Shown: one piece after another, positions 38,649 to 58,512 of the stretch | Position numbering within the stretch: position 1 is the first letter of the stretch | Layout of the letters: every line of letters begins with the position of its first letter | Assembly: GCF_017873555.1 (NCBI RefSeq) | Contig: NZ_JAGGKE010000002.1 | Location: forward strand, 248,001 to 312,000 | Length of the DNA stretch: 64,000 bases | Direction: 5' to 3' | Source of the DNA: Halorubrum trapanicum | GTDB lineage: Archaea > Halobacteriota > Halobacteria > Halobacteriales > Haloferacaceae | The notes under the pieces: model-generated | The model's database searches: none | What the model was told of the DNA's origin: nothing | The model's input: the letters and a program-made list of their open reading frames with translations, nothing else | Made by a program: the position numbers and the translations under genes

Positions 38649-38710
38649 GAGCGAGCGAAGTGGGTGGAGCGGGCGGAGCGAGTGGAGCAGGCGGAGCGGG
38701 CCGAGCGGGG
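38649..38710. repeat. Degenerate 9-bp GGCGGAGCG-type tract
   Basis: About six imperfect copies of (G/T)GGAGC(G/A)(G/A)(G/T) follow the gnd stop. It is purine-rich on the plus strand and has no conserved period beyond nine bases. It is probably replication slippage. Confidence 0.55.
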
Positions 38711-38784
38711 TAAGCGGACGACGAGAACGGTTCCTTCGTCTGATTATCAGGATCTATCACGTCCGAGAAAGGCTTATGTACGGT

Positions 38785-39201: not shown

Positions 39202-39511
39202 TTATTTATAAGTGGTTGTCCGTGAGTCGGCGACGACCACCCCCAAAGCCCCAGCCGGGAGGCGGGCGCACGCTCGTTGCGCGCTTCAGTCGCTCGCTTC
39301 GCTCGCTCCTTCCAGTGCTTACGTCGCCTGCGCCCGCCTCCCGGCTGCCCCTTTGAGTCCCACCCCGCACAGCACCGCGACCGCTCCTCACGCCTCCCCA
39401 GCCTCGTCGGTGGTCCTCCGCTTCGCTCCGGACCACCGACTCCCTCGCGCGTGCTCCTCACGCCCTTCGGGCGTTCGGAGGCACGCGCCACCGCACATCG
39501 TTCGTTTATAA
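39202..39511 (+). ncRNA. Structured non-coding repeat element, copy 1
   Basis: This stretch of a 421-bp gene-free gap begins with TTATTTATAA and ends with TTTATAA. Stem 1 is a perfect 18-bp pairing (39253-39270 with 39329-39346) around a 58-base loop ending GTGCTTACGTCGCC. It is flanked by CAAAGCCCC and GCCCCTTTGAGTCCC. Stem 2 is 11 bp (39406-39416/39430-39440) with loop TCCGCTTCGCTCC. Stem 3 is 8 bp (39447-39454/39481-39488) capped by ACGCCC-TTC-GGGCGT. Copy 2 at 58101-58512 keeps loops and spacers and changes stems in a compensatory way. It has no coding character. TATA-like ends suggest a transcript, but this is not proven. Confidence 0.7.
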
Positions 39512-56678: not shown

Positions 56679-58082
56679 ATGGTCTGTCTCGTCCACTACT
56701 CCGACATCGAGAACGTCTTCGACGCCCCCGAGCGGGCGGCCCGCCTCGCCGGCCGGATCCGGGCGCTCTCGGGTCCCGACGCCGCGGTCGTCGCCACCGG
56801 CGACACGACCGCGCCGGGCGTCCTCTCGCTGGTCGCGACCGGGAGGCAGGTCCTCGACTTCTACGAGGCGACCGACACCGTCCTCGACACCTTCGGCAAC
56901 CACGAGTTCGACTACGGGCCGGACGCGCTCCGCAGCCTCGTCGCCGACGCGCCCGCGACGTTCGTCTCCGCGAACGTCCGCGACGAGGACGGCGACCCGT
57001 TCGGCCGCGACGAGGGCGTCGTCCCGTGGACCACCCTAGAGGTCGACGGCGAGCGAGTCGGGGTCGTCGGCGTCACCGATCCCGCCACCGACTCGCTGAA
57101 CCCGATGGCCGCCGAACTCGCCTTCGACGACCCCGTCGACGCCGCCCGAGAGGCGCTCGCGGAGATGCGCGCCGCGCACGCGGAGGAGACCGAAGACCTC
57201 GATCACGTCGTCGTCCTCTCGCACCTCGGCGCGGGCGACGACGACCTCGCGCGCGAACTCGACGTCGACGCGGTCCTCGGCGGTCACGTCCACAGCCGCC
57301 GGAACGAGGTCGTCGCGGAGACGCTGCTCGTCCGGCCCGGCGTCAACGGCGAGGCGGTGGCCGAGATCGATCTCGACGCCGAACCCCCGACCGTGACGCT
57401 CCACGAGCCGGAGGGGGCCGCCCCCGCGCCCGGGCTGGCGGACGCCCTCGCCGAGCGGATGGCCGCGGCCGACCTCGACGAGACCGTCGACGTCGTCGAC
57501 GAGCCGATCGAGCGATCGGGAGACGTGGTCCACGGCGGGGAGTGTCGGGTCGGCAACTTCGTCGCGGACGCGTTCCGGTGGGTCCACGGCGCCGACGTGG
57601 GGCTGTCGAACGCCGGCGGCCTCCGGCAGGGCGACCCGTGGGCGGGCGACGTGACGAAGGCGGACCTAATCTCTCTGATCCCGTTCGAGGAGCCGGTCGC
57701 GCTCGCCTCCGTCACCGGCGCGGAACTCGGCGACGTGCTCCGGGAGATGGCCGCGCCCGACGTGGACTTCGGCGAGGACGACTGGTGGCACGGCCACGTC
57801 TCGAACGCCCGCGTCGTCTGGGACGACGACGCCGAACTCATTCTGGAGGCGACCGTCGGCGGCGAGCCCATCGACGCCGACGCGCGCTACACGGTCGCGG
57901 TCTCGGAGTACCTCCTCCACTCCGAACACGAGTTCCCGACCCTCGGCGAGCGTCACCGGGTCGACGAAGCGGGCATCCAGTACGAGGTGCTGGCCGAGTA
58001 CGCCCGCGAACACGGCATCGACCCCGCAATCGAGGGCCGGATCGAGATCCGGAACCGCGCCGCCGCGGCCGACGACGACTGA
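56679..58082 (+). CDS. Metallophosphatase/5'-nucleotidase family protein
   Basis: The 467-residue protein has the calcineurin-like domain first (VHYSDIENVFD; VVATGDTT; TFGNHEFDYG; VVLSHLGAG; VLGGHVHSR). The C-terminal 5'-nucleotidase domain follows (CRVGNFVADAFRWVHGADVGLSNAGGLR, LISLIPFEEPV). There is no signal peptide, so it is probably cytoplasmic, unlike UshA. A TATA-like TTTTTAAG is about 36 bp upstream. Confidence 0.93.
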   Translation: MVCLVHYSDIENVFDAPERAARLAGRIRALSGPDAAVVATGDTTAPGVLSLVATGRQVLDFYEATDTVLDTFGNHEFDYGPDALRSLVADAPATFVSANVRDEDGDPFGRDEGVVPWTTLEVDGERVGVVGVTDPATDSLNPMAAELAFDDPVDAAREALAEMRAAHAEETEDLDHVVVLSHLGAGDDDLARELDVDAVLGGHVHSRRNEVVAETLLVRPGVNGEAVAEIDLDAEPPTVTLHEPEGAAPAPGLADALAERMAAADLDETVDVVDEPIERSGDVVHGGECRVGNFVADAFRWVHGADVGLSNAGGLRQGDPWAGDVTKADLISLIPFEEPVALASVTGAELGDVLREMAAPDVDFGEDDWWHGHVSNARVVWDDDAELILEATVGGEPIDADARYTVAVSEYLLHSEHEFPTLGERHRVDEAGIQYEVLAEYAREHGIDPAIEGRIEIRNRAAAADDD

Positions 58083-58100: not shown

Positions 58101-58512
58101 TTATTTATAAACTGACGCGGTGGCGCGTGCCTGCGAGCGGCCGCCGAAGGCGGTCGCGAGCCAGCACGCGCGAGGGAGTCGGTGGCCCGGAGCGAAGCGG
58201 AGGGCCACCGACGAGGCTGGGGAGGCGTGAGGTGCGGTCCCGCGAGCGACCGGAGGGAGCGAGCGGGAGCACGGAAGTCGCAGCCCGCGCAGCGAACGCA
58301 GTGAGCGAGCAGGACCGTCTTCCGGCGGTCGCTGTGCGGGGCGGGGTGGGGCGGGACTCAAAGGGGCAGTCGCGAGGACACCGTAGGCGACGTAAGCACC
58401 GCAACGAGGGAGCGGAGCGACCGAGTGAGGAGCGCAGCGAGCGTACGGTGTCCCCGCGACTGGGGCTTTGGCGGTGTTCGCCGTCGATCCACCAGCAACT
58501 GTTTATAAATAA
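58101..58512 (-). ncRNA. Structured non-coding repeat element, copy 2 (reverse orientation)
   Basis: It fills most of a 489-bp gene-free gap and reads on the minus strand when aligned with copy 1 (39202). Both ends carry TTATTTATAA pointing inward (58101-58110 and 58503-58512). Stem 1 pairs 58444-58461 with 58368-58385 (18 bp, one G-U), with the same 58-base loop length. Stem 2 is 58178-58188/58202-58212 with the identical 13-base loop. Stem 3 is 58123-58130/58164-58171 with an inner CCGCC-TTC-GGCGG. GCCCCTTTGAGTCCC, CTCACGCCTCCCCAGCCTC and TCCCTC spacers are identical to copy 1. About 90 extra bases between stems 1 and 2 are unique to this copy. Confidence 0.7.

Follow-up and report, generated by a model that had tools for sequence, protein, structure and literature searches.

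A high-copy, structured interspersed repeat of Halorubrum with covarying and exchangeable hairpins

The window, a stretch of 64,000 nucleotides from Halorubrum trapanicum analysed as a whole, holds two intergenic copies of a repeat, ~260–310 bp in length, whose stem differences are compensated. The question raised is what kind of element this is, and whether its pairing is kept for an RNA or for the DNA itself. The first-pass annotation took the two for a pair. They are two of ~130 interspersed copies, and the repeat is also present in a distant genus.

Architecture of the element

Both copies were found at the positions first proposed (Table 1). In stem 1, eight of 18 positions distinguish the arm AGCCGGGAGGCGGGCGCA from its counterpart AGTCGCGGGGACACCGTA; on the 3' arms, TGCGCCCGCCTCCCGGCT and TACGGTGTCCTCGCGACT, seven of the eight changes are fully compensated and one gives a G-T pair. 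Stem 2 has a single T-A to C-G change and a 13-base loop identical in both copies. Spacers are identical. These details agree with the first description, and so, overall, does the end-to-end alignment, except that the linker of copy 2 also contains a hairpin insert of ~99 nt. The non-coding nature of the repeat is accepted: the lengths of the copies show no preference modulo 3 (23:21:19), and a coding repeat was rejected.

Table 1. Positions of the two copies and their parts in the window.
Feature	Position	Strand	Remarks
Copy 1, whole repeat	39202..39511	+ (orientation of the first-pass annotation)	Probable folded strand R = minus; R1 82.7 bits
Copy 1, left AT box TTTATAA	39205..39211	.	~26–27 nt ahead of conserved GAACACC start in typical copies
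Copy 1, CAAAG, P1 outer arm	39244..39248	+	Pairs with CTTTG 39351–39355; paired in 60/60 copies
Copy 1, invariant CCC(C) opposite CCCC	39249..39252	+	3x3 internal loop, GGG/GGG on R; 60/60
Copy 1, P1 (stem 1)	39253..39346	+	Covarying outer helix, then 2-bp steps between conserved TC/CT mismatches; as read on R, tandem G.A mismatches, tip GNA
Copy 1, conserved GCCCCTTTGAGTCCC	39347..39361	+	
Copy 1, 19-nt core CTCACGCCTCCCCAGCCTC	39387..39405	+	Near-invariant across genera
Copy 1, P2 (stem 2)	39406..39440	+	Exchangeable hairpin cassette
Copy 1, P3 (stem 3)	39447..39488	+	
Copy 1, right AT box TTTATAA	39505..39511	.	
Copy 2, whole repeat	58101..58512	-	Probable folded strand R = plus; R1 74.7 bits
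Copy 2, left AT box TTTATAAA	58502..58509	.	
Copy 2, P1	58368..58461	-	
Copy 2, conserved GCCCCTTTGAGTCCC	58353..58367	-	
Copy 2, optional linker hairpin insert	58232..58330 (about)	-	Present in several other copies too
Copy 2, 19-nt core	58213..58231	-	
Copy 2, P2	58178..58212	-	
Copy 2, P3	58123..58171	-	
Copy 2, right AT box TTTATAAA	58104..58111	.	

Element body ~260 bp, composed of the P1 hairpin, a conserved linker, a 19-nt core, the P2 hairpin and the P3 hairpin. The full order on the + strand is one to four 57-bp units, P1, GCCCCTTTGAGTCCC, linker, 19-nt core, P2, TCCCTCGC, P3, ACCGCA and AT box. The 57-bp tandem unit (n = 1–4 ahead of P1) reads from an AT box to GAACACCKCCAAAGCCCCAGCCG. 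Examined for the terminal inverted repeats of a MITE, the conserved ends have only GCGGTG in common, and AT boxes stand at both ends in direct orientation. A TTATAA lies 45 nt or less from the right end in 69/144 copies vs 0/684 control windows; 106 of the 123 TTTATAA/TTATAAA sites in 381 kb are at the element. The palindromic TTTATAAA is present at both ends of copy 2, which are its only two occurrences in the window.

The overall architecture is common to Halorubrum and the distant genus. Small twin-hairpin inserts are optional and lie within P1, P2, P3 or the linker; perfect ones (e.g. GCGAGGGACCGAAGGTCCCTCTGGCAGCCGGCGCGTAGCGCCGGCGAC) are seen in P1/P2/P3 of copies L017, L023, L039, L052, L053, L066 and others. 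These nested inserts probably constitute another family of small mobile repeats. Several copies, L014, L044, L065, L080 and L090 among them, carry an inverted P1 interior. In four copies from Halorussus litoreus and the distant genus (L184, L275, L278, L279) the core is split into two halves, inverted relative to each other and flanking a GGCAGTAGCTAGC...GCTAGCTACTGCC palindrome, and the 5' half is unlike that of Halorubrum.

Distribution and genomic place

The 19-mer CTCACGCCTCCCCAGCCTC has two matches in the window vs 0.03 expected. In the window's own 3.08 Mb genome it matches 68+67 times at up to 3 mismatches (~130 copies, one per ~23 kb); the reversed-pattern control gives 4+2. All 35 Halorubrum genomes examined by DNA search match, with at least 12 matches each. 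A pattern scan finds the element in Halorubrum species and, in low numbers, in Halobellus captivus, Halorussus litoreus and an uncultured haloarchaeon. Across 194 genomes of the order the core is counted 16–178 times in Halorubrum, up to 104 times in one distant genus, and 0–3 times in the other genera sampled from the family of Halorubrum. From the named match to Halorussus litoreus, the distant genus is probably Halorussus. A cross-genus covariance model covering the 3' half recovers both window copies (82.7 and 74.7 bits) and matches 51/145 genomes at E ≤ 1e-5. In Rfam no match reaches the curated gathering score in the window, and at a relaxed threshold the best chance match on the element has E = 4.7. 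The motifs were not found in the literature searched, in line with the first-pass statement that no named family was known. Contigs C3, C5, C9 and C10 of genome G000 have copies within ~150 bp of their ends, and short-read assemblies break at the repeat. One copy (L079, G000:C20, ~23.95 kb) has long C runs in the P2 region, likely an assembly or sequencing artefact.

Copy 1 is flanked by a DUF5802 gene and a VLRF1-type release-factor-like gene. Copy 2 neighbours a 5'-nucleotidase gene (56679–58082), to which its R strand (plus) is sense; its other neighbour is presumably folD. Upstream of the VLRF1-like gene the element is present in ~20/30 species, position and orientation kept, and behind the 5'-nucleotidase gene in ~8/30. 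At 38650–38720, just 3' of a gene, a purine-rich stretch of GGAGCGAGCGAAGTGGGTGGAGC-like repeats resembles the P1 tips in style and is not a copy.

Occurrence across distant genera, together with presence and absence at sites, argues for past mobility. Matches to the element were limited to three plasmid records, with no phage record among them, which is odd for mobile DNA; a phage or plasmid origin was rejected on these near-zero counts. In the window's genome, element motifs lie within 1.5 kb of TnpB at 0/13 loci, and an IS605/omega-RNA origin is rejected; a stand-alone Y1 transposase was not found there, since 4/4 Y1 matches adjoin TnpB. An IS200/IS605-type pair, TnpA then TnpB, occupies the window's left edge (1–1400).

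Covariation and turnover of the hairpins

Selection on pairing, not on sequence, had been proposed from two copies. In an alignment of 60 copies covariation is far above controls, and 31 of 45 predicted pairs are changed on both sides. In the named 40-pair structure 96.6% of cells are paired, vs 84.7% in shuffles and 31–42% in slid controls, and 26/40 pairs are changed on both sides. Double-change cells number 275 vs 82 shuffled; because the copies are related, the shuffle count is not a probability, and the slide control is stronger. In a cross-genus alignment the core and TCCCTCGC are invariant, and P2 pairs are changed on both sides at all four positions. The inner part of P1 on + consists of covarying 2-bp steps, with the T.C/C.T mismatches between them kept in 85–97% of copies; the CCC/CCC internal loop is kept in 60/60. 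Because of the level of pairing, the double-sided changes and the low pairing of slid controls, the structured family is real: a high-copy family, no earlier description of which was found in Rfam or the literature searched. Within these alignments the hairpins are shown to be kept while their sequence is rewritten. Strong covariation alone is not proof of a functional RNA.

Orthologous copies are no closer than random ones (P1 0.574 vs 0.591, P2 0.479 vs 0.478), so copies swap whole hairpins with one another. Paralogues within the genome are more alike, and for 16/77 P2 hairpins of other species an identical hairpin is present in the window's genome. In one genome P1 differs in all 63 complete copies; thus nothing points to a recent burst. 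Sites persist while hairpins swap, and this, rather than stepwise compensation alone, is the explanation adopted for the contrast between the window copies. The compensation between them had been offered as proof of selection. The pairing is indeed kept in the 60-copy family, but the changes are largely whole-hairpin exchange and turnover, and two-copy compensation is therefore by itself no proof of RNA-level selection. At some other sites the element is shortened, with the junction at CCCCAGCC. A single TTTATAAA is retained at two 5'-nucleotidase loci that lack the element. Neither a clean empty site nor a target duplication, as looked for in comparison with MITEs, was found; in the one case of precise absence the element has been deleted and a remnant is left.

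The folded strand and its interpretation

On R, the minus strand relative to the first-pass orientation, the P1 mismatches and CCC/CCC read as tandem G.A pairs and GGG/GGG. Tips were scored in P1 (from alignment columns) and P3. P1 tips on R are 37 GNA and 10 GNNA (47/54 short tips), middle bases free. P3 tips are GNA/GNNA 48 times on R vs 7 on + (p = 1e-8, optimistic as the copies are related). None of the 23 four-base GNNA tips of P1 and P3 is GNRA (RNA type). In DNA mini-hairpins of extraordinary stability, the published rule is a GNA or GNNA loop with G-C closure (PMC4686876). Because of the tandem G.A pairs, the GNA/GNNA tips and the absence of GNRA, R is probably the folded strand, and the loop rules, as read from sequence, point more to DNA than to RNA. 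The strands are not told apart by their whole-strand fold z-scores (-6.06 vs -6.31). A wobble test in stem 1, in which A.C on + (G.U on R) exceeds G.T by 33:6 in this genome and 39:22 elsewhere, is not relied on because one column carries much of it, probably by exchange with the tandem units; a looser wobble test gave mixed counts.

The reading tentatively favoured is a modular, non-autonomous, BOX/REP-like interspersed repeat of putative function, selected for the fold of a single strand, more probably as ssDNA than as RNA. The selected object would be the fold of R, with its tandem G.A steps and GNA/GNNA tips. A factor may read this fold, through its structure and the conserved single-stranded motifs, once the strand is exposed as ssDNA during replication, repair or transposition, analogous to the reading of REP hairpins by RAYT transposases. 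Such a factor would spread the element, or would once have spread it; recombination between copies would keep swapping hairpin cassettes. The element lies in gaps poor in genes, mostly right behind stop codons, and would be tolerated there. A further-reaching form of this reading, itself rather unlikely, is that the ~130 copies are a genome-wide set of structure-read ssDNA sites in an archaeon. A host or selfish factor would then recognise the R fold by its tandem G.A pairs, GNA/GNNA tips, GGG/GGG loop and invariant 19-nt core, and the stems would be freely rewritten and exchanged, as at attC or REP sites, but with a new architecture and a putative enzyme.

A 3'-UTR or intergenic RNA element on R, folding in read-through mRNA from the adjacent upstream gene and ending, capping or stabilising it or insulating convergent genes, is a possible, though rather unlikely, alternative. 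In Halorubrum R is sense to the tail-side gene in 54/81 cases (p = 0.004), whose stop codon lies at a median of 55–62 nt from the element, and gaps holding the element are convergent vs divergent 30:12. These figures depend on heuristic gene calls, however, the distant genus has no orientation bias toward the tail-side gene (10:9), and enrichment 3' of stop codons is also expected of tolerated parasites, as argued for BOX (PMC3049150). R folds more stably than + in 70/70, yet shuffled R is also much lower; the difference is compositional, and fold energy was rejected as a strand test. Tandem G.A pairs are an RNA motif too, but GNRA tips are missing. It is improbable that the repeats are a family of small RNA genes on +, each transcribed from a TATA promoter in its left unit. 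TTATAA starts 47 nt ahead of P1 in 67 of the 98 copies possessing it, conservation jumps at purines (GAACACC) 26–27 nt past the box centre, a spacing usual in archaea, and the tail has an AT box 3' of P3. This promoter-like spacing suits a + strand RNA, against the R/ssDNA reading. Roughly half of the copies nevertheless lack the left AT box, as do the Halobellus and Halorussus-type copies examined, TTTATAAA is palindromic and stands at the opposite end also, and the inner P1 mismatches on + are T.C, with no stabilising motif.

A protein-bound dsDNA site for chromosome organisation or replication at ~20-kb intervals would agree with a chromosomal element, near-absent from plasmids, at its observed density. 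It is very unlikely: conserved hairpin pairing would be needless for it, copies along a complete chromosome (complete exact list) are not polar in orientation, and their spacing is irregular. Least credible is derivation from IS200/IS605 transposon ends in the manner of the Haloquadratum PATEs; PATEs likewise lack clear inverted termini and have several palindromes, non-coding length, nested small insertions and ~100–200 copies (PMC3119063), but element motifs are at the ends of 0/13 TnpB and 0/4 TnpA loci in the window's genome.

The kinds nearest to the element are BOX, REP/BIME and PATE, and on the features tested it joins none of them. Integron attC sites likewise have variable stem sequence and a conserved fold, and one of their strands is read as a hairpin, as may be so here; the element differs in being chromosomal and dispersed. 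BOX repeats of Streptococcus pneumoniae are modular (A-Bn-C) with variable internal units like this element, with about a hundred intergenic copies, a strong predicted fold, convergent-gene enrichment and slow turnover (PMC3049150). The comparison covered architecture. The host here is a GC-rich archaeon; unlike BOX, the element has a tandem unit outside the fold, and its stems are rewritten and exchanged, which was not found described for BOX. REP/BIME sequences with RAYT are likewise high-copy intergenic hairpins, and a known case is read as ssDNA (PMC3733652), but REP is a 20–40 bp palindrome and the element has ~260 bp and three hairpins. The GTAG/CGTC tag of REP is not present at the conserved ends. 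REP/RAYT also has a dedicated Y1 transposase, and the window's genome has none without TnpB. PATEs and SMRs of Haloquadratum walsbyi are, like the element, transposase-free, palindromic and heterogeneous; PATEs have ~180 copies and are invaded by other small repeats (PMC3119063), whereas for the element no link to IS605 ends was found at 13 TnpB loci. Mini-hairpins of the d(GCGAAGC) type share the GNA/GNNA loop and G-C closure of the R tips (PMC4686876), and are described in synthetic oligonucleotides, whereas in the element they are deduced from sequence.

The element would be among the commonest repeats in a haloarchaeal genus that is widely studied, unmatched in Rfam and the literature searched. 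It provides ~130 natural replicates per genome of a conserved fold with rewritten sequence. Hairpin exchange among dispersed copies in prokaryotic genomes thereby becomes testable, as does compensatory change driven by ssDNA structure as against RNA.
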